Shown: positions 1-9,604 of the stretch, piece after piece
Layout: each line of letters starts with the position of its first letter
How positions within the stretch are numbered: position 1 is the first letter of the stretch
Program-made: the position numbers and the translations under genes
From: Enterococcus silesiacus
Lineage (GTDB): Bacteria; Bacillota; Bacilli; Lactobacillales; Enterococcaceae
Assembly (NCBI GenBank): GCA_001465115.1
Contig: CP013614.1
Coordinates: 2,356,001-2,420,000, forward strand
Length of the DNA: 64,000 bases
Reading direction: 5' to 3'
Notes under the pieces: generated by a model
What the model was told of the DNA's origin: nothing
Database searches by the model: none
The model's input: only the letters and a program-made list of their open reading frames with translations

Positions 1-590
1 AATGGTTATACTGGAAATTTCAATCCACTAGCTCTAAACAGAGCTAGACCCCAATGTATTACTTTATCGAGAATCCACGTGGAGATTTCAATCCACTAGC
101 TCTAAACAGAGCTAGACATCGGCTATCACATTTTTAATATACACGAAATTATTTCAATCCACTAGCTCTAAACAGAGCTAGACCACTAAAGGATGGATAG
201 TCACTTGCTTTGAATGACATTTCAATCCACTAGCTCTAAACAGAGCTAGACATTAAGTGAGGAAATACTAAAACGTGTGTGGATTCATTTCAATCCACTA
301 GCTCTAAACAGAGCTAGACATACTTAATGCAGCTAATGTAAATATCATCAATATATTTCAATCCACTAGCTCTAAACAGAGCTAGACAATCGTGCGATCG
401 TCTTTTAAAACGATATTACAGGGATTTCAATCCACTAACTCTAAACAGAGCTAGACGTTGTATAGATTATCTTCTGCAATGTTGTACATACATTTCAATC
501 CACTAGCTCTAAACAGAGCTAGACATAAACTTAGCAACAGACAAAACCAATTGGGAAATTTCAATCCACTAGCTCTAAACAGAGCTAGAC
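1..590 (-). CRISPR. Type I-C CRISPR array, nine repeats visible, truncated at left edge
   Basis: Nine 33-nt repeats lie at 17-49, 85-117, 151-183, 219-251, 287-319, 355-387, 424-456, 492-524 and 558-590, separated by 33-36 nt unique spacers; bases 1-16 are part of a further spacer. On the minus strand each repeat starts GTCTAGCTCT, forms an 8-bp hairpin (CTAGCTCT/AGAGCTAG, GTTT loop) and ends GTGGATTGAAAT, the classic I-C 3' end. That end yields an 11-nt crRNA handle TGGATTGAAAT after Cas5 cleavage at the base of the stem. Transcription is leftwards from the leader next to cas2. The seventh repeat has one substitution at 438 that breaks one stem pair. The array continues outside the window. 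Confidence 0.99.
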
Positions 591-702
591 TGTGAAAATG
601 ACATAAATACATGTCATTTCTTCACCTTTTCACAAATAAACCGCAATTAAATTAAATTCAGATGAGAAAAACGGCTTTTTTTAAATAAAATATACCTAAA
701 AT
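591..702 (-). promoter_or_regulatory. CRISPR leader
   Basis: AT-rich sequence between the leader-proximal repeat (ends 590) and the cas2 3' region. It contains a 7-bp inverted repeat ATGACAT/ATGTCAT at 598-604 and 611-617, eight bases from the first repeat, where adaptation and transcription signals are expected. Leader function is inferred from position and array orientation. No clear -35/-10 pair was pinned down. Confidence 0.75.
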
Positions 703-757: not shown

Positions 758-1048
758 TTAAAATATCAAAGGAGCTTCTACATCAAAGCTTTCTTTTGCA
801 CCAATATGCTCTACTTTATTTTGATAATTATTTCCCAAGCGGTAAATACGTAAACTATCTAATTCTTCATCAATTAAATCAACCAGTTCTTTCTTCAACT
901 TAGTTAACTCCGTTGCATCAACAACACATTCAAAAACAGAATTCTGAACACGTTGTCCATAATCTTGACATTTTTTTGCTACTTTCCTCAAACGACGAGT
1001 TCCATTCTTAGAACTTGTTGCGACATCATAAGTGATCAACACTAACAT
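758..1048 (-). CDS. cas2: CRISPR-associated endonuclease Cas2
   Basis: Cas2 forms the adaptation complex with Cas1 that inserts new spacers at the leader end. The N-terminus MLVLITYDV is the typical Cas2 ferredoxin-fold first strand with the conserved Asp, followed by a basic helix and the QNSVFEC strand. I start at ATG 1048 (96 aa), which has GGTG six bases upstream and gives the usual family length; an in-frame GTG at 1057 would add three residues. It is the last gene of the cas operon, nine bases after the cas1 stop. Confidence 0.96.
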   Translation of the reverse strand: MLVLITYDVATSSKNGTRRLRKVAKKCQDYGQRVQNSVFECVVDATELTKLKKELVDLIDEELDSLRIYRLGNNYQNKVEHIGAKESFDVEAPLIF

Positions 1049-1057
1049 ACTTTTCAC

Positions 1058-2086
1058 CTACTTCCATAAAAACGGTGGATAACCATCTAAATCATCTCTT
1101 AAAAAGCGACTTAATAACAATGCCTGAGCGTAAGGAACTAACCCCCAATTGATTTTCTCACCTAAAAATGGATGCTGAATTTGCTCTTGTTTCTTTTCTT
1201 GCCATTTTTGAAAGAAAGTACGTCTACCATCATCCGTCAAAATTACTGCACCGCTCTCTTTTTTCACAAAATCCTTTTCAGTCACTATTTTTTTATTGAT
1301 CAAGGTTAAGACAAAACGATCCGCATAAATGCCTCGCAACTCTTCCATCAAATCTAGTGCTAAAGAAGCTCTACCCGGTCGATCTTGATGCATAAAGCCA
1401 ACATAAGGATCAAGTCCAACAGTTTCTAATGCAGCAGCACATTCTTGCGCTAACAAAGTATAAGCTAAGGAAAGCATTGCATTTACATTATCCAAAGGTG
1501 GTCGGCGGTTTCTACCATAAAAACCGAAATCACTTTTTTGCTGTAAAATCATTTGATCAAACAATAGAAAATAACGATTTGCTGCTTGTCCTTCGATTCC
1601 TCTTAATGATTCTAAATCCCCGACTTCGCGAATATCTTCAATGTATTTTTTTAATTCGCCAGAAATTTGTTTAAAACGTTCGACATCAACTCGCATCGTA
1701 TTCTCTCTTGTCATTCGTTCCAACATCCAGCGTTGATTATATAATTTGCCAATAATAAAATGACGGGCAATTTCCAAGCTATCGGCTTCAATATCAGATA
1801 AACGATATTGCTTTTTCCGCAATGTGACATTGCCAGTTGTACCACCAGTCACTCGACTGCCAAACTTACCAGAATTCGTTAAAAAAGTAATTCCAATATT
1901 TTTTTCAGCACATTTGCGCATTAGCGCAGGGCTAGCACCTAAATAACCAGAAGTGACAATGGCTTCTATATTATGAAGTGGAACTCGATTTTTCTTTTCA
2001 TCTATTTTGACAACAATATTCTCACCATCTAAAGCTAAATAGGCATCTGAGGATGTTATAAATAAGGTATTCAACAGCTTTTTCAT
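1058..2086 (-). CDS. cas1: CRISPR-associated integrase Cas1 (type I-C)
   Basis: Spacer integrase, 342 aa, usual length for Cas1. An N-terminal beta domain precedes the helical catalytic domain. Likely metal ligands are Glu165 (in LRGIEGQAANRYF), His233 (in FMHQDRPGR) and Asp245/Glu248 (in LALDLMEELR). The start overlaps the cas4 stop by 4 nt (ATGA), indicating translational coupling. Nothing suggests inactivation. Confidence 0.98.
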   Translation of the reverse strand: MKKLLNTLFITSSDAYLALDGENIVVKIDEKKNRVPLHNIEAIVTSGYLGASPALMRKCAEKNIGITFLTNSGKFGSRVTGGTTGNVTLRKKQYRLSDIEADSLEIARHFIIGKLYNQRWMLERMTRENTMRVDVERFKQISGELKKYIEDIREVGDLESLRGIEGQAANRYFLLFDQMILQQKSDFGFYGRNRRPPLDNVNAMLSLAYTLLAQECAAALETVGLDPYVGFMHQDRPGRASLALDLMEELRGIYADRFVLTLINKKIVTEKDFVKKESGAVILTDDGRRTFFQKWQEKKQEQIQHPFLGEKINWGLVPYAQALLLSRFLRDDLDGYPPFLWK

Positions 2087-2736
2087 TCACATAACCTCCG
2101 ATCTAAGTAGCCTTTGACTGTTTGAACATTCATTAATTTAGGTAAACAGATATTTTGTAATGAACACTTTTTACAAAAATTTCCAGTTTTAACCTTTGGT
2201 GTATAGCGTCTTTTCCAATATTGATGCATTTCTGCTACATTTTTTTGTAATTCTTCTCGTAAAGCAGGCGTAATTTCGATTTCTTCTCGGCGTTTTGTTT
2301 CATGATAATATAAATAGCCTTTCGGTACTTCACATACTAACATCTCTTCTAAGCAAACGGCTTGAGCTGTTAATTGTAATATATCACTAAGCTCTTGTTT
2401 GGGTTTACCATGCTTGTATTCAACTGGTACAGGTAAATAAGTTCCCGTTTCTCCGTTTAATGTTACACCGTTTGGATCTTGCACAAATTCCACCACATCA
2501 CAGATTCCAGTAATTCCTAAAGTTGGTGAATGGATTGGCAATGCGCGAACAATCAAACGATCTTTGCGCTTTTCACGAATTGTTGGTTGATCGGCTTTTT
2601 CATGTAAATATTGACCTTCCAACGTCAGCACATTTTCTTGCCATTGCTGCTCAATATGGATCAACGCCCATTGACGACGGCAGAACAGAAAATGTTGAAT
2701 ACCTGAAATCATTAAATAATCTTGTTCATCGTACAT
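2083..2736 (-). CDS. cas4: CRISPR-associated exonuclease Cas4
   Basis: Cas4 of the PD-(D/E)XK family trims prespacers and sets PAM and orientation with Cas1-Cas2. The 217-aa protein starts with MISGIQHFLFCRRQWALIH (first cluster Cys and the conserved FCxRQ), carries VPVEYKHGKPK (catalytic E/K strand) near residues 125-135, and ends with the cluster cysteines FCKKCSLQNIC. It lies between cas7 and cas1, one base after the cas7 stop, the standard I-C position. Confidence 0.97.
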   Translation of the reverse strand: MYDEQDYLMISGIQHFLFCRRQWALIHIEQQWQENVLTLEGQYLHEKADQPTIREKRKDRLIVRALPIHSPTLGITGICDVVEFVQDPNGVTLNGETGTYLPVPVEYKHGKPKQELSDILQLTAQAVCLEEMLVCEVPKGYLYYHETKRREEIEITPALREELQKNVAEMHQYWKRRYTPKVKTGNFCKKCSLQNICLPKLMNVQTVKGYLDRRLCE

Positions 2737-2737
2737 G

Positions 2738-3601
2738 TTATAGCCCTTCGATGACAGATAGCTCGATTCCTTCTAGTGGTTCAACAGTTACTGTGTAATC
2801 GTCAAATGATTTTGCACGATCAACTTCAGGAATTTTTTCGATTTTTACAGAGCGATGGACTTTCGCGGATGATGCTTTGCCCATTTTGCTTGGGTGTTCC
2901 CACCAGTAAACCTTTTCGACTGCCATACTGCCATCTGGACGAGCGGATGATGCGTCGTTTTCGAAAAGAGTTGTTAGGGCTTCTTTGATTTTTTCTGCAT
3001 CCGCTTCGGTAAAACCTGTTTTTTCTGCTAGTTGGACGTTGATGCTGCCGTTGAAGACATAGACGCCAAAGTCGACGAAATGTTTGGTTCCCATGGTGTC
3101 AGAGCTTTTTCCGCCACCCTCACTGACTGAATTGACACTTTTTGTGATTTGCATTGTATTAATGTCGATTGGTTCAAGGCTGACTGCAGTTTGTATGGAA
3201 ACTGGACCACGAACACCTACAGAAAGTTCCAATCCTTTAAATGCAAATACCTGTCCAAAACTACGCGTATCGATCCACGTTTCACAAGCTACTTCACTAA
3301 ATCGGTTCACATCTGCTTTCTTTTTATCAGCAGCAATTTTATTTAATTCTTCGACAGAATCTACGCGGTCTTTCAAGCTCTTCAATCCATCATCTGCCCG
3401 ATCATCAGATTGCACAAAAATTTTCTCTCCCATATCTTGTAGACGATTGCGTATTTTCCGTTTGATCGCTACATCCGAAATCTCGCCATAACCTTCAAAA
3501 TTTTGACGTGGTCGGTTGCCGTTTAACGGATCTCCGTTTGGATTAGCATTTGTTACTGATGTGATTACCTTAAAGTCGATTTTGTGTGTTAAAACTGTCA
3601 T
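2738..3601 (-). CDS. cas7c: Cascade backbone protein Cas7 (Csd2, type I-C)
   Basis: Cas7/Csd2 coats the crRNA spacer in the I-C effector. The N-terminus has the hallmark ITSVTNANPNGDPLNGNRPR, and the rest fits the RAMP-type Csd2/Csh2 family at the expected length of 287 aa. It follows cas8c by three bases and is probably the most abundant subunit. By analogy with known CreTA systems, this complex would also be what a crRNA-like CreA RNA loads onto. Confidence 0.98.
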   Translation of the reverse strand: MTVLTHKIDFKVITSVTNANPNGDPLNGNRPRQNFEGYGEISDVAIKRKIRNRLQDMGEKIFVQSDDRADDGLKSLKDRVDSVEELNKIAADKKKADVNRFSEVACETWIDTRSFGQVFAFKGLELSVGVRGPVSIQTAVSLEPIDINTMQITKSVNSVSEGGGKSSDTMGTKHFVDFGVYVFNGSINVQLAEKTGFTEADAEKIKEALTTLFENDASSARPDGSMAVEKVYWWEHPSKMGKASSAKVHRSVKIEKIPEVDRAKSFDDYTVTVEPLEGIELSVIEGL

Positions 3602-3604
3602 GAT

Positions 3605-5530
3605 TTATTCCTCCGTTTTCTCTTCTGTTTTTTTCTTCAAATCTGCTCGTTGGCTATAATAACCTAATAAATATTTCCCGTCTAAAGCTTTATCTGTATA
3701 GTCTTCAAACTCAAAAGAATCACCAATTTCATCTAATAATTTTTGATAATAACTTCCTTTTCCTCTTAACCTTGCTTGATACGGAATCAAATTTTCTTGA
3801 ATGATCCTCCAAGTTTTTAACGGATGATTACTAAAAGCATTCATATAGCGAATCGCATTTGTACTTCTATTAATACCTGCTTTATATAAGGCACGTTCTT
3901 CCAACACATCAGCAACTGCCAACATTCTTCCAAATAAGTAACTTCTATCTTTCTGATTTTTATCTAGAGCCACATTTTTTTCCTCCTTTTTAAAATTAAA
4001 GTGTTTTTTCATTACTGCACAGGCAATACTTAATGTTTTTTCCCATTCCCATTTTTCCATGCTTACAGGATTTGACGCTCTTTGTAGGAGATTTCGAACT
4101 AGATTTATTGGAATCCTTTTTCCATCTACAACACAAGGAAATAGTTCATGAATTGTATTTTTTATCAGCGTATCACTCGCTCGTGAACCATAGGCTGCTT
4201 CGGCGATATCCCTCAAAGATGGCGCTCCCCAAAAAGTATAACGCTGCTTATTTTTACTGCCATAAGTATGTCGCCAGAAACAAGTTTGATGCCAGTCTTC
4301 AATTCGAGCAAAGTATTGTTCTTTTTCAATCGAACGATAGTACAGAATCCCCATTCTGCCTGGAGTAGCTGCATCTAGAATCATGATGTAAATTGGTTCG
4401 TGATAAGCAAGCTTTACACTATAACCATTCAAGGCTTTTTTAAACAACTCAGAAAATTGTTGATGGGTTGTATCTGGGTTTAGTAAAACTTCTGCTTCTT
4501 CATCTTTTGCAAAAATAGCATCGAAATCAAGAAAATCAGCACTGGATTCTTCTGGATTAGGAACATTCGTTTCTTTTTTCCCCCAGGTTAAAAAGACTCG
4601 TCCATCTAAAATAAATGCTTGTTTGCCAATCAACCATTTTAAGGCGTTATGGCCTTTTTGAGAGACTTCATAACTGATCGAAGCCACTTGATTTTTATCT
4701 GTAAAACGACCTTTATAGGTGAAATTCACCGAATCATTGCCAGAAATTATTTTCGCCATATCACCGCCATAACGCACTTTCGAAGGATGATTTTCTGTCA
4801 GAGGTAACATTTTGCCCGTCACATAATCCAGCCCTTCGTTCGTCAGTTCGTTTGTATAATAAGCGACAAAGGAGTCAATGATTTCTGAATCTCCCCAGAG
4901 TGGTCGTTTTCCTGTTCCTGGTTCTTGAACAGCAAATCGAACGAAAGAGGTTGCTTGTTCTCCAACTACTACACTGAATAATGCTGGTTTCTCGCCAAAT
5001 TCTGCTTCTAGTTCTTTTGACCATTTGGGAATAAGTTGATGATTTTTCTCAACCATTACCTTTGCCTGTATTAAATCTTCAATTAGTTTGCCTTTTTTTA
5101 AATAACTTAAAACACTTTTAACGACTGGCTGAGAATAATCTGATTCACACCAAGCCTGCAAGTTTTCTAAATACATCTGATAAGAATTTTTTCCAGCTTT
5201 ATTCTTTTTGTAAACACCACCATAGTGCTCAAAATCACCCGCAACATAAACTAAATTGTCATGGATTAAATGTGGTGCAGACGTTGAACCTGCTCTTCCA
5301 GCAGATTCGATCGTTACAGGAATCATTGTTTGAGCGTCTTCTTTTGGAACGACGCTTGCTGAATAAAATTCACCTTCTGGCATTATCGTTACTTCGATTT
5401 GAGCATTTTGATACGCATGTGCAATGGGTAAAAGTACAATTTCTTTTCCAGCCGAAGTTCGTTGGACTTTTCCTACTTGGTCGGCATTTTCTCTGTACGT
5501 TTCATATAAGTCATTCAACCAACTCATCAT
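3605..5530 (-). CDS. cas8c: Cascade large subunit Cas8c (Csd1)
   Basis: Cas8c (641 aa) is the large I-C subunit that reads the PAM and recruits Cas3. It begins [20 protein letters not shown] and contains the Csd1-type middle region and a lysine/glutamate-rich end. In I-C systems an internal start in cas8c often yields the small subunit Cas11c; the C-terminal part here could do the same, but I did not pin an internal ribosome site. The start overlaps the cas5 stop by 4 nt. Confidence 0.97.
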
Positions 5531-6258
5531 TCGACCTCCTGTTCCAAGGATTCAAATAACTGATCGACGGGTTCTATTTCTGAAAGTTCAAATGTTTTAG
5601 CTTGCATCGTTCTAAGCGGTCGAACTAAGGTACATGCTTCTGGGCGAGGAAACTGAATAATCCCTTTTTCCATAATCGGGTGCCACAAACGAACAGCTAG
5701 TTCGTCTCTCCCTGTTTCATCTGGATAGGATAACCCATGCACCATTGTGCCAAAATGTAGCTCACCTTCATACGCATCATAGTCCCCTTTTGCCACACCA
5801 AACTCAACAGGTTCCACATATCCCTGACATTCTCGCGTACCTAGAAAAATATCCCTTCTTCCGCCAGCTTTGATTGAACGTTTTAAAATTTGATAATGTT
5901 TATCTTCATTCCAATCGCCTTTTAAATCAGGACGATGTTGATTAAACTCAAAATGGACTTTCACTTCATAAACAGGCTTTTTCAAATACGTATAATAAGC
6001 TAAATCACTTGCACTGCTGTCATTGTATTTCATTGGGCGCATGCCTTTAGATTCCATTTGAATTGATTTAATTACACGTACTTCATCAATGTAATAAACA
6101 ATTGATGGTTTCCAGTAGATACTTTCGGTAATTCCTTTTAAGGCTTGATAGGTAGGAACTTGATAGGTCATCTTTTCTCCACCCATTTTTGTCAAAGGAT
6201 CAGTAAAAAGAGCATACTCACCTTCAACTCTAAAAGAAATTTGATTTTTATATTTCAT
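5527..6258 (-). CDS. cas5c: Cas5 (type I-C), pre-crRNA endonuclease
   Basis: In I-C systems, which lack Cas6, Cas5 cuts the pre-crRNA at the base of the repeat hairpin and stays on the 5' handle. The N-terminus [21 protein letters not shown] is typical of Cas5d/Cas5c. I start at ATG 6258 (243 aa) because a strong AAGGAGG lies just upstream; an ATG at 6288 would add ten residues that translate this ribosome site. It sits between cas3 and cas8c. Its processing rule (cut after the stem, 11-nt handle) is what makes the crRNA-like RNA at 9136-9225 meaningful. Confidence 0.97.
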
Positions 6259-6276
6259 TGATGCTTCCTCCTTTTT

Positions 6277-6302
6277 GAATGAGCCCATGCAGCTAGATAA
6301 AA
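6277..6302 (-). repeat. Remnant of a structured leader repeat before cas5
   Basis: On the minus strand the cas3-cas5 gap reads TTATCTAGCTGCATGGGCTC directly before AAGGAGG. This resembles the start of the leader repeats at 12544-12662 and 12805-12923 (TTATCTAGCTACGCGGGCT). Only one arm is present. Similarity over about 19 nt with 3-4 differences could be chance. Confidence 0.3.
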
Positions 6303-8732
6303 CTAAAATTCTAAATAGCCGCTCGCAGCCTCAGCTTCTAAATCGATACCAAATTTCAAATCGTATGCATTACTTGTAAGTGCTAGAATATCTCCATTCA
6401 GAAGCGGATAAATACTACCCGTTTTTTGAAGTTCCATCAGTTCGTGCTGAAACACATTGACCATATATTGTTGTGCTTTTTTTAAAGTAGGGGCATACTC
6501 TTCTGGTCTCAACTCTCCATTTAAATCAGCGATTAGATCGTTGCCTTTTTTATACGGAACAAGTACTGATGTTGTTGGGCTATCAATGACCTGAAAATAT
6601 TTTCCTACTGTTTTAGGACTACTTCTAAAAGCCAATAGAGGAGCAGAGCCATGTGTTCGTTTGTAGTGCTCTAGAGCATTAGCCCCTTCACCTAATAGAC
6701 TAAAGAGATTGAGGGATGTCCTTTTTACGGGATAATTTAATTCATCCTTAAAACAATCATAATATCGATCAAAATACCGTTTTTGAACATCATGAGAAAG
6801 TAATTCCTTTTGTTCTAGTTCACTGCTTTCTTTAAGAATATCTAGCGTAATTTCTTGACCTTGTTTAATTTCTGGTAAATGAGTCAGATTTTCAAGGTCT
6901 GCTGAAAGATTGATTAGATAGACTGGTTGCTGTTTGATTTCGCCGTGACGATTACAACGTCCTGCCGCTTGCGCAATTGAGTCTAATCCTGCTACTGAAC
7001 GAATAACGGATTGGAAACTGATATCCACACCAGCTTCAATTAATTGCGTTGTGATACAGATGAGTTTTGTGTCGTTCCTTTTTAGCTTTTCACGCAGCTC
7101 ATCCAATAAATTTTTCCGATGCTTGGCACACATTGAAGTACTCAAATGATATAATTCAATATTCTCTAATTGCTTATTTTCCAAATACTGATAGAGACTT
7201 CGAACAGCTTTTTTTGTATTTAAAATAATCAGCAGGTTTTCTTTTTCTGCTAAAATTTCTTCGCTAAACTCTGCTAGCTCTTCAAGCGTCCATGCTTCAT
7301 CTGTTGTCCGATCAATAACCTCTACTCGTTTAAACTTTGATTCTACTTCTGATAAGTTAGAAACCATTTCGCCATCGGATTCTTTGGCTAACGCTCTACC
7401 GACATTTTCTAAAGATGGCTGAGTTGCAGTGCATAAAACACTTGTCGTTGTGCCGTAATTTTTTAAGAAGTTCAAGCTTTCATTAAATAAATGAGTGCAG
7501 TTTGTTGGAACACCTTGTGCTTCATCAAAAATAATCACCGCATTTGTTAAGTTATGAAAACGACGTGGATTTCGCGTTCCTCGGCTGTATATCGTATTTA
7601 GAAACTGCACCATTGTGGTAAAAATTACTGGACTTTCCCAATTGTCTTTCATTAATGCTTGTTTCTGCTCTAAGGCTTCTTTTTCTGCTTCTGATTCTTC
7701 CGACTGTCTTTCTTTCGTTTCTTCCTGATCCGTAAAAATGTTGGAATGATGCTCTAGAATATTTACTTCGTCTTTTAAAATTTCTCGAACGGTTGCAGCA
7801 TTTTGCTCAATAATAGTCGTGAAGGGCACGACATAAATAATGCGTTCTTTTCCATGTTTGATAGCGTGATTCAAGGCAAAACGTAAACTTGCCAACGTCT
7901 TCCCGCCTCCTGTTGGAATCGACAGGGTGTAAATCCCTGTTTTTCTTTCAGCAAAATTTTTACACTGTTCTGACATTTGACTACGAAGTTGATTGATTGG
8001 CGTGTCAGCTGTAAATGTTGAGATATATTCTTCTAAGCTTTGGCTATAGGATTGAAGTAATACGTCATTTTCATGCTGTTTAAATATTTTATTTTCTTCA
8101 AATAACATCGTATTTGTTCGGTCTGCATCAAGAAGGCAACTATAGATGAATTTCAAAAGGAAAAAGGTGTCGTTTTGTTTGACTCGGTTCTTTCCGTCAG
8201 TTTGATAAAACCCTTTCAATTCTTTTGTTGCTTCCAACAGTAATTTCTGAAACTGTTCTTCTGACATTACTTCTTGGAAAAAACGACCTTTGATTAGTTC
8301 ATACTCAACGACCTCAATTTCATCTACTCGTCTGAGATAATCTGAAGTCGCTTCTCCTTCTGGGGTAAAAAAGTCTTGTAGACCTCGGCTACTATGATGA
8401 GAAATAATTGCATTACCTACCAATTCAGCAAGAATATATGAAAATGGATCACGACTATTTTTGTGACAATAATCAAACAGAAGCTTACCGCCAGCTGTTG
8501 AATGATCGACACTGCCACGTGTCACGCTTTTCGGATCAGCCACTGCTTTTTTTAAATACACTTGGAATTCATTTGAATATTTTCCTAGATCGTGAAGCAA
8601 ACCAGCTAAATAGCTAGTTTTTCTCAGTCCTATTTTTTCGCCCCAATCAGCGCTTAATTCGGCACATTCTGCTAGATGATCTTTTAAATATTGGTTCTCT
8701 TTATCTGATTTCCTCACATGTGCTATATACAT
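6303..8732 (-). CDS. cas3: CRISPR-associated helicase/nuclease Cas3
   Basis: Cas3 (809 aa) degrades targets found by Cascade. The HD nuclease domain is N-terminal, with LLHDLGKYS (His47, Asp48) and the SHHSS motif near 111-115. The SF2 helicase has Walker [10 protein letters not shown] at 271-279, motif II FDEAQ at 402-406 and motif [13 protein letters not shown]. All key residues are present, so interference should be active. Start ATG 8732 has AAGGAGA seven bases upstream. It is the first gene of the cas operon. Confidence 0.98.
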
Positions 8733-8738
8733 ACTTAA

Positions 8739-8800
8739 TCTCCTTAATTGATTTCTAATTGTCTTAAATACATTATATCATTTATAAAAAAAAGAACTAT
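8739..8800 (-). promoter_or_regulatory. Probable cas operon promoter and cas3 ribosome site
   Basis: A perfect -10 TATAAT lies at 8772-8777 on the minus strand; 17 bp upstream (8795-8800) the -35 is poor (ATAGTT) and overlaps the terminator hairpin of the upstream small gene. The predicted start near 8765 gives a leader of about 30 nt before AAGGAGA (8739-8745) and cas3. Confidence 0.6.
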
Positions 8801-8818
8801 CTAAAATTTTAAATAGTT
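8786..8818 (-). terminator. Intrinsic terminator after the creT-like gene
   Basis: On the minus strand AACTATTTAAAA pairs with TTTTAGATAGTT (8795-8818, up to 12 bp with one G-U) and is followed by an eight-T run at 8786-8793. It sits three bases after the stop of the small gene and separates it from cas3. Confidence 0.85.
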
Positions 8819-8821
8819 GAG

Positions 8822-8992
8822 TTAATTTTTTGATTGATAGAGAAAAAAGTAGACGACTAACAAAATTACTAATGCTAGTATGAATAAAGTAGAAAGTTTA
8901 ATTTGATACTCCCAAAATTTATCTATAATAACTGGAATTAGTCCACTAATAACGACAAACAATAACTTTTCGAAAGACTGCTTATTTTCCAC
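8822..8992 (-). CDS. Small membrane peptide, candidate CreT-like toxin
   Basis: A 56-aa ORF starting at GTG 8992, with GAGG at 9000-9003 seven bases upstream and an in-frame TGA four codons before the start. It begins VENKQSFEKLLFVV. It has two hydrophobic stretches, about residues 10-24 and 35-53 (STLFILALVILLVVYFF), and a short polar tail ending QSKN. I recognise no family. Its size, two membrane segments, own promoter (TTGACT/TACAAT) and own terminator fit a small toxic membrane peptide. A protospacer matched by the adjacent crRNA-like RNA covers its 5' untranslated region, so the I-C Cascade probably represses it, as CreA represses CreT. Toxicity is inferred. Confidence 0.75.
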   Translation of the reverse strand: MENKQSFEKLLFVVISGLIPVIIDKFWEYQIKLSTLFILALVILLVVYFFLYQSKN

Positions 8993-9006: not shown

Positions 9007-9031
9007 TTCGATTCAATATATACTATTTTCA
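9007..9031 (+). promoter_or_regulatory. Cascade target: TTC PAM plus protospacer in creT leader
   Basis: TTC at 9007-9009 is the I-C PAM. The next 22 bases (9010-9031) match the guide at 9169-9190 at 20 positions, with mismatches only at guide positions 6 and 11; pairing stops after position 22. The match starts exactly at the PAM edge and at the end of the crRNA-like handle. The site lies between the creT-like promoter (-10 at 9055-9060) and its GTG at 8992, where a bound Cascade would block transcription. Partial pairing fits binding without cleavage. Confidence 0.88.
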
Positions 9032-9054
9032 GAAAAATTTGATTATATAGTCAA

Positions 9055-9083
9055 ATTGTAACAAATGATTTAAAGACAGTCAA
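9055..9083 (-). promoter_or_regulatory. Promoter of the creT-like gene
   Basis: On the minus strand -35 TTGACT (9078-9083) and -10 TACAAT (9055-9060) are 17 bp apart, a strong sigma-A type promoter. Predicted start near 9048, just upstream of the protospacer. Confidence 0.75.
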
Positions 9084-9120
9084 TACTTCTTTGAAATTCA
9101 ATTTATTTTAACAACTATTA

Positions 9121-9129
9121 TGGTATAAT
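9121..9129 (+). promoter_or_regulatory. Extended -10 promoter of the creA-like RNA
   Basis: TGGTATAAT is a perfect extended -10 (TGnTATAAT). No good -35 is seen, which is usual for this promoter type. Predicted start is near 9136, right before the degenerate repeat, and divergent from the creT-like promoter. Confidence 0.75.
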
Positions 9130-9135
9130 ACTTTG

Positions 9136-9225
9136 TAATTTGTCACATTTTAGTGTGTGGATTGAAAAGATTCTATATTTACTATTTTCATCTATCGTCA
9201 GCCCAGATTATATATTCTGGGCTGA
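9136..9225 (+). ncRNA. crRNA-like guide RNA, candidate CreA antitoxin
   Basis: A degenerate I-C repeat lies at 9142-9168. It begins GTC, has a short stem CACA/TGTG (9144-9147 with 9154-9157) in place of the 8-bp array stem, and then TGGATTGAAAA, matching the array handle at 10 of 11 positions. The guide begins at 9169 and matches a TTC-flanked site in the creT-like leader (9010-9031) at 20 of 22 bases. A second hairpin, 9198-9207 with 9216-9225 (core AGCCCAGA/TCTGGGCT), follows after 29 nt of guide, where a downstream repeat hairpin would sit; the U-rich bases after it suggest it also terminates the RNA. This is the architecture of CreA, a crRNA-like antitoxin that uses Cascade to silence a toxin. 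The sequence in front of the guide is not a PAM, so it should not target itself. Confidence 0.85.
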
Positions 9226-9376
9226 TATTCTTTATAAATACCTAAGCTTACTTAAACAATTTCATTAAGCCATTGCTGGAATAGTTCTAAGACTACTCCA
9301 ATAACTATTTACTCAACAATTATTTTCCACAAAATTATATATCCTATAGCAAAATAATAACCCAGGAGTGATAAAT
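9226..9376. other. Intergenic region before the MazE-like ORF
   Basis: AT-rich, no ORF. An imperfect hairpin TGGAATAG/CTACTCCA lies near 9276-9300. AGGAG at 9364-9368 serves the next gene. No confident promoter. Confidence 0.4.
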
Positions 9377-9604
9377 ATGTTATTTGCAAAATCAAGATTA
9401 CAAAGAAACTCTGCAATTACAGATTTTCCTACACATAACAGAGAAAAAACTGAATTAAATACTGAACTAAATAAAGAATATATAGTTGTCTATGCAATTA
9501 GCGGCTCAGTTGCATTAATACAAAAAATAGACGATCCATTTTCAGAAGGTTACGAGGGTGAATTTTACGAAGCTGATGAGTGGTCTGAATTAGCCCCTTG
9601 GTAG
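9377..9604 (+). CDS. MazE/AbrB-like orphan antitoxin homologue
   Basis: 75 aa from ATG 9377, which has AGGAG eight bases upstream; an in-frame GTG at 9368 lies within that ribosome site. The layout resembles the MazE/PemI-type small antitoxins of lactic acid bacteria: an N-terminal swapped-hairpin-like part (AKSRLQRNSAI, then KEYIVVYAISGSVALIQK) and an acidic toxin-binding-like tail (DDPFSEGYEGEFYEADEW). No PemK/MazF toxin follows; instead there is a structured RNA gene. Family assignment is by pattern only. It could be an orphan antitoxin or a small regulator. Confidence 0.55.
   Translation: MLFAKSRLQRNSAITDFPTHNREKTELNTELNKEYIVVYAISGSVALIQKIDDPFSEGYEGEFYEADEWSELAPW

Follow-up and report, generated by a model that had tools for sequence, protein, structure and literature searches.

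Introduction

CRISPR-repressed toxins are known for subtypes I-B, I-F and I-E. The CreTA modules of Acinetobacter (I-F) and of haloarchaea comprise a crRNA-like antitoxin with a degenerate repeat, which matches its target in part and is encoded among the cas genes, and a toxin that is an RNA, the I-F guide being accompanied by two pseudo-repeats (PMC10097628, PMC8501985, PMC9458426). Processing in these modules is of the Cas6 type. Positions 6, 11 and 18 of the I-F CreA are given as unpaired (PMC10097628), and repression without cutting by a short match has been reported for CreA. Protein toxins under CRISPR control are already published for other subtypes (PMC12055562; CrePA, PMC12737573). 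In the I-E system of Citrobacter rodentium, the 96-bp toxin needs translation, and Cascade is required for the function of the module while Cas3 is dispensable (PMC12055562). In CrePA, a protein toxin, typically of the KilA-N kind and acting on FtsZ, is repressed by Cascade together with a crRNA-like RNA and answers to anti-CRISPR, and CreR and other stand-alone repeats provide crRNA-like RNAs regulating genes inside the CRISPR locus, the chief targets described for them being cas promoters (PMC12737573).

Among the matches listed in our literature search, the scope of which was without the 2023 survey of stand-alone repeats and the 2021 founding paper, no such module was described for subtype I-C or for enterococci, and the term "I-C" is absent from the main text of the CreTA papers searched. 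The 2023 survey, by Shmakov et al., reportedly names toxin-antitoxin cargo among the targets of stand-alone repeats. Enterococcus cecorum has been listed with a type I-C system (PMC4393107).

Here we describe an enterococcal locus that is, in our judgement, quite probably a CRISPR-regulated toxin-antitoxin module of the CreTA type belonging to subtype I-C. Like the C. rodentium module, it combines repeat-like and spacer-like segments, its guide partly matches a site that is flanked by a PAM and close to a small ORF's promoter, and it stands beside cas3; unlike that I-E module, whose ORF is reported to be without relatives (PMC12055562), it belongs to I-C, has its target in a leader, encodes a member of a conserved membrane-peptide family and shows exchange with other toxins. 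The putative crRNA-like antitoxin with degenerate repeat and partial match among cas genes recalls the Acinetobacter and haloarchaeal modules, as do, for the I-F case, the unpaired positions 6 and 11; the differences lie in the RNA nature of their toxin, the two pseudo-repeats of the I-F guide and the Cas6-type processing. With CrePA it would share a protein toxin repressed through a crRNA-like RNA, the toxin candidates here being a membrane peptide or MazF, and with CreR the regulation of genes inside the CRISPR locus.

Results

A candidate crRNA-like RNA and its PAM-flanked target upstream of type I-C cas3

The window, i.e. the whole stretch of DNA that was analysed, comprises 64,000 nucleotides (G000:C1:2356001-2420000) of a host genome of 3.93 Mb in a single contig. 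Its features are the following, with the basis of each assignment in parentheses.

15-603, minus strand: CRISPR array, nine repeats listed, possibly extending past the window edge (repeat listing)
758-2736, minus strand: cas4, cas1 and cas2 (profile match)
2738-6288, minus strand: genes of the effector complex, cas7c (2738-3601), cas8c (3605-5530) and cas5c (5527-6288) (PADLOC)
6303-8732, minus strand: cas3, type I-C (profile match; PADLOC Cas3c)
8772-8777, minus strand: TATAAT, candidate -10 element for the cas operon, downstream of the hairpin at 8786-8818 (by eye; absent from the promoter scan list)
8786-8818, minus strand: A+U-rich hairpin with T-run, probable terminator behind the peptide gene (folding; the terminator scan, requiring G+C pairs, omits it)
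8822-8992, minus strand: creT-like gene for a 56-aa two-helix membrane peptide, GTG start (ORF list, homologues, codon comparison, structure model)
9007-9009, plus strand: TTC, PAM of the target (sequence; TTC or CTC in 10/10 loci)
9010-9031, plus strand: target, situated in the peptide gene leader between promoter and Shine-Dalgarno sequence (alignment, scans)
9055-9083, minus strand: promoter of the peptide gene, TTGACT-17-TACAAT (promoter scan; 10/12 consensus bases)
9121-9129, plus strand: extended -10 element (TG-G-TATAAT) of the creA-like RNA (by eye; absent from the promoter scan list)
9142-9168, plus strand: psiR of the creA-like RNA, a degenerate I-C repeat with short stem and 11-nt handle (sequence; folding)
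9169-9190, plus strand: guide, 20/22 identical to the target, constrained in its first ~16 nt (alignment, ten-locus comparison)
9197-9226, plus strand: intrinsic terminator ending the creA-like RNA (terminator scan; 1 found vs 0.2 in shuffles)
9377-9604, plus strand: orphan MazE/PemI-like ORF, probable mazEF relic (59% identical to the MazE-like protein of G010, E 9e-31)

The best-matching PADLOC models (Cas3c, Cas5c, Cas8c and Cas7c) bear out the type I-C neighbourhood proposed in an earlier note on this DNA. That note had also described a degenerate repeat followed by a guide that matches the leader of an adjacent 56-codon gene, and its coordinates hold at the level of single bases. The half-repeat at 9142-9168, GTCACATTTTAGTGTGTGGATTGAAAA, and the array repeat of the window, which reads GTCTAGCTCTGTTTAGAGCTAGTGGATTGAAAT on the minus strand, differ within the 11-nt handle solely in the last base, while the long stem of the array repeat is replaced by a short one (-5.1 kcal/mol, z -1.7 compared to shuffles). 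At the sequence level, this would suit a crRNA-like RNA with degenerate repeat as in CreTA. A second repeat was not seen in the unit. The pattern GTCACA..TGTGTGGATTKAAA matched 9 of the 105 genomes of the family and its backward control none. The stretch 9136-9235 folds at z = -4.9, and the terminator, which is strong, lies 28 nt past the guide start. The only hits to known RNA families, Rfam snoR99 (25.5 vs a cut-off of 41 bits) and mir-255 (20.6 vs 50), were below their cut-offs and were taken as chance. Of the extended -10 promoter that the note ascribes to the RNA, TGGTATAAT is present at 9121-9129 as judged by eye; a -35 element is not recognisable and the site is absent from the promoter scan list.

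Guide (9169-9190) and target (9010-9031) agree at 20/22 positions, the mismatches being positions 6 and 11, and the match starts exactly at the handle border and immediately 3' of the TTC at 9007-9009. Read along the minus strand, the -10 element (9060-9055) is followed by the target (9031-9010), the TTC (9009-9007), a Shine-Dalgarno sequence GAGG (9003-9000) and the GTG start codon (8992-8990), which places the target between promoter and start codon as had been stated. The promoter TTGACT-17-TACAAT was among 4 promoter-like sites retrieved by the scan, compared to 5.8 in shuffles. The target starts 278 nt upstream of cas3, with the ORF and the hairpin in between. It is the best site for the guide within 1.5 kb even when the PAM is ignored, and none of 300 shuffles of the first 17 guide nucleotides equalled the observed score. 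In addition, the entire genome (3.93 Mb) was scanned for TTC followed by 18 guide positions, leaving positions 6 and 11 free and allowing up to 3 mismatches. Four matches were obtained, i.e. the target with 0 mismatches and three sites with 3 mismatches, one of which is the guide itself. Since a backward control pattern also yielded 4 matches, the 0-mismatch match alone counts. A chance match was rejected on the basis of the shuffles and of this genome-wide scan.

Guide and target covary across the genus

A type I-C cas3 is present in 12 of 22 genomes of the genus, and in all 11 relatives carrying it the full set of seven cas genes was found, stop-free in the best aligned stretch. The same-genus relatives include E. 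plantarum LMG 26214 (G011), E. moraviensis ATCC BAA-383 (G009) and E. termitis LMG 8895 (G018). The plasmid collection searched gave no match to the region. Ten of the 12 I-C genomes carry a half-repeat in the 1.5 kb before cas3, and there, as in CreTA, the candidate module lies at the CRISPR-Cas locus, directly upstream of cas3. A first pass, with 10/12 loci oriented, had yielded 7 half-repeats; the later orientation of G013 and G004 and a looser handle in G020 raised the number to 10.

Divergence of guide and target without covariation in relatives, the outcome that the earlier note had named as speaking against its reading, was looked for in these loci and the opposite was found. Pairing is kept in 10/10 loci with about 7 different guide sequences, the guides of G008 and G001 being identical and that of G011 close to them, and those of G010 and G020 being equal over 17 nt. 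In each of the ten loci, the best guide site in 1.5 kb, determined with the PAM ignored, is flanked at the exact border by TTC (8) or CTC (2); its placement relative to a promoter is clear in 7/10. The observed score was reached by 0/300 shuffled guides in eight loci, by 4/300 in G020 and by 1/300 in G010. Guides score 12-15/15 in their own region and 8-12/15 in the regions of unrelated loci, the two ranges meeting at 12 (own score of G020; guide of G018 in G004). Exceptions are the cross-matches among G011, G008 and G001, which have guide and target in common (14/15), and those within the mazEF pair (12-13).

Over the ten loci, mismatches are entirely absent from positions 1-5, 7, 8, 10, 13 and 15; one occurs at each of positions 9, 11 and 14, and three at positions 12 and 16. 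Position 6 is mismatched in 7/10 loci, and positions 17 to 24 have 4-8 mismatches each. Thus, ~16 nt are kept apart from the sixth base, which is free, a pattern compatible with the tolerance of a Cascade R-loop.

The targets precede genes for membrane peptides or mazEF

The 56-codon ORF was confirmed at 8822-8992 on the minus strand. Over the ten loci, the genes that would be regulated encode membrane peptides of 50-62 aa (7), a membrane peptide of 27 aa (1) and MazEF (2). Alignment assigns peptides of 50-56 aa from six genomes (G000, G011, G009, G008, G001, G018) to one family, which was found in 6/105 genomes of the taxonomic family, all six with I-C cas3, and in none of the 105 without it, a count that refers to the six-member family only, the G013 and G004 peptides lying outside the search. 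In a collection of 5.8 billion proteins, seven matched at E 0.01 or better including the window's own, two of them being named Enterococcus. The structure model consists of two helices (mean pLDDT 73, pTM 0.41, from a shallow alignment). The 56-aa peptide gave no match to known families at the cut-offs applied, and the KilA-N domain of CrePA toxins is not among its features, as no Pfam family was found in it. An origin from a phage holin was set aside (E 0.087, in one relative only). G013 encodes a 62-aa peptide of similar layout and 23% identity, assuming an internal ATG start; its longer reading from a GTG start would place the target within the ORF. The 27-aa peptide of G004 has one hydrophobic stretch (by eye; hydropathy). 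A promoter-like pair is located just upstream of the target in 6/8 peptide loci; in G008 and G001, no convincing promoter was recognised between target and half-repeat. The hairpin behind the peptide gene in the window has a folding energy of -6.7 kcal/mol (z -2.0; 11/200 shuffles fold equally well).

In G010 and G020, the target is found in front of a mazE-mazF operon directed away from cas3. In G010, a perfect promoter directly adjoins the target with its -35 element, and at the G020 target no promoter is recognisable. MazF matches PF02452 (E 5e-23) and the MazE-like protein of G010 matches NF047400 (E 2e-30). A related MazF occurs in 46/105 genomes of the family (E 1e-15), 40 of which are without the half-repeat pattern. 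In these two loci, CRISPR control thus seems to have been extended to a toxin-antitoxin operon of a common type. De-repression of mazEF would raise MazE as well, and addiction is therefore less obvious there. In the window, the orphan MazE-like ORF at 9377-9604 is still open, and no mazF was found beside it. Given that mazEF stands here in two relatives, this ORF is probably the trace of an earlier mazEF stage.

Loss of cas genes, half-repeat or toxin candidate

G014 has no cas3, and the 16 kb around its relic yielded no match to cas genes below E 0.2. It keeps the half-repeat (L153 / L161; G014:C1:563912-563939) and an open mazE, and its mazF is interrupted by an in-frame stop at codon 26. 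A 1,336-bp segment beginning between target and mazE is common to G014 and G020 at 98%; G014 lacks the cas side together with the target and the part in which G010 has its promoter, and a weaker promoter-like stretch nearer mazE remains. In G012, the cas genes are present, but only the final 30 nt of the peptide gene align, followed directly by the mazE relic, indicating that creA and the remainder of that gene have gone, apparently in one deletion. G005 carries the cas genes with neither half-repeat nor peptide and has a 734-codon ORF in their place. Hence, 2 of 12 I-C genomes (G005 and G012) possess cas genes without half-repeat or peptide, which counts against an addiction reading. The loss events are few, yet each fits what addiction would predict.

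These observations also bear on a reading in which RNA-guided repression is real and the peptide is non-toxic, acting as a CRISPR-linked membrane effector or sensor that is turned on by occupation or inhibition of Cascade. It would fit the lack of toxin family matches and the two I-C genomes that do without the peptide. However, the same place is occupied by mazEF, a known toxin pair, in other loci, the peptide gene was apparently lost together with creA in G012, and mazF is broken where the cas genes are gone (G014). We regard a harmless peptide as unlikely.

Related arrangements beyond the genus and regulation of cas genes

Outside the genus, a cas3 match was present in 9 genomes of the family, 5 of which have a stand-alone handle within the 1.5-kb flanks. 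The raw score of the match to a TTC site is 14/15 in L133, L139 and L140 and 12/15 in L138 and L141 (a TTT-flanked site of L141 scores 13). The target is located in the cas3 leader in L139 and L140 and, weakly, ~180 nt upstream of cas5 in L141 (gene starts by eye). These three loci look like possible cases of CreR-type self-regulation, and RNAs of this sort may have two roles, control of cas genes and restraint of toxins. At L133 (4089-4290; G090), a promoter-like stretch coincides in part with the target, and its transcript would cross tiny ORFs and the guide gene, a possible RNA-type CreT.

Could the RNA of the window likewise guide Cascade onto the cas operon, with the 56-codon gene merely being the leader gene of the latter? 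The guides of L139, L140 and L141, from three other genera of the family, match a TTC site before cas3 or cas5 (just 12/15 in L141), and the peptide gene is co-directional with cas3 and immediately upstream of it. However, the hairpin with its T-run and a separate TATAAT separate the two genes in the window, the targets in G010 and G020 precede mazEF, which points away from cas3, and the peptide frame is conserved. CreR-like autoregulation is therefore improbable as an explanation of this locus.

Candidates for the preferred reading, a CreTA-type module, were also sought among 80 named I-C loci, scanning up to 2.5 kb upstream of cas3 (several were shorter, L060 and L118 with <200 bases), first in a strict run and then with positions 6 and 12 freed; 1,027 handles were examined. 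L043, L044 and L046 are contigs of G011, G009 and G018 and hence not independent, leaving 77 other loci. Two of them were kept, L059 (Pullulanibacillus pueri) and L113 (Paenibacillus sp. FSL H7-0326), each with a stand-alone handle and a TTC-site guide, whose mismatches within the first 15 positions are at 6 and 12 in L059 and at 6 alone in L113. Visual inspection led us to drop eight rows (L062, L064, three of L074, L081, L120 and L047) as matches due to arrays, repeats or chance, most of them with a shuffle p (0.002-0.014) the same or nearly the same as that of the kept candidates. As about 2 rows at p 0.002 are expected by chance from 1,027 handles, L059 and L113 are leads rather than proof. 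In L113 (~90-780 upstream of cas3), the target lies before a 96-aa cysteine-containing ORF with no family above cut-off, a candidate toxin of another kind; in L059 (~358-381 and 443-495 upstream of cas3), there is no clear ORF, and an RNA toxin or cas regulation could be involved. A separate observation concerns the L074 array upstream of cas3, in which two spacers match each other's opposite strand reciprocally at 17/18.

Reading frame and guide orientation

The reports on haloarchaea and Acinetobacter describe CreT molecules that act as RNA (PMC8501985, PMC10097628), and by analogy the creT transcript could be toxic itself, as in Haloarcula, the ORF being incidental. The comparison of G008 and G001 agrees with this, as all differences are nonsynonymous (5, with 0 synonymous), which runs against purifying selection. 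On the other side, the 50-56-codon frame is open in six genomes with the remaining frames closed, and dN/dS is below 1 (0.30, 0.37 and 0.57) for the pairs among G000, G009 and G011, which are not independent of each other. The coding signal in 3 of the 4 compared pairs thus favours a peptide over the RNA toxin by which CreTA was defined, and we consider a toxic transcript very improbable.

Relative to the regulated transcript, the guide is antisense in 4 of the ten loci, including the window, and of the same sense in 6. In these 6, an antisense RNA cannot work, whereas a DNA-binding Cascade can. A type I toxin-antitoxin system, in which an antisense RNA would act on the leader of the toxin mRNA and the likeness to a CRISPR repeat would be secondary, is consequently hardly credible and was rejected. 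In its favour, the window guide could pair with the mRNA leader right before the Shine-Dalgarno sequence, and the class typically combines a small hydrophobic protein with an antisense RNA (PMC6563280). In addition to the sense of the guide, the PAM at the border in 10/10 loci, the free position 6 and the conserved I-C handle speak against it. In view of target sense, PAM and free position 6, we uphold Cascade-guided repression as the more likely reading.

Discussion

The CreTA-type reading draws on the anatomy of the RNA, a PAM-exact target, covariation in ten genomes, an open conserved frame and intact cas genes. From these sequence data we infer transcription and processing of the RNA, repression without cutting, toxicity of the peptide and harm to the cell upon loss of cas genes. 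In subtype I-C, processing is carried out by Cas5c. An RNA extending from ~9136 to ~9230 would be cut by Cas5c at the pseudo-repeat, load into Cas5c-Cas8c-Cas7c and direct this complex to the TTC-flanked site at 9010-9031. Only ~16-20 bases would pair, presumably too few to call in Cas3, and the complex would sit on the leader of the 56-codon gene and block transcription without cutting. Upon loss or inhibition of Cascade by mutation, transposon or anti-CRISPR, the membrane peptide would be made and harm the cell. Loss of cas genes would thereby be penalised, and cells whose CRISPR is disabled by phage would be sacrificed.

The earlier note had viewed the locus as an addiction module guarding a type I-C system. 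Covariation and the presence of I-C effector genes support this view, with the refinement that the module is not bound to a single toxin: half-repeats alike in kind are found opposite either membrane peptides or mazEF. The creA-like RNA could be a re-targetable wiring element placed over unrelated poisons, with toxin-antitoxin genes being captured, rendered CRISPR-dependent, and broken or deleted when cas genes or guide go, a wider proposal for and against which we see the balance as even.

If the CreTA-type reading is true, CRISPR addiction would also occur with subtype I-C and in a Gram-positive genus, its toxin being a protein of membrane type, with evidence that the toxin part can be exchanged. 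The ten natural guide-target pairs show which bases matter, i.e. position 6 is free and ~16 nt are kept, and G014 provides a natural case of missing cas genes together with a broken toxin gene linked to them. The reading would also be a warning that deletion of Cascade genes, or inhibition by anti-CRISPR, may poison the cell in these bacteria.
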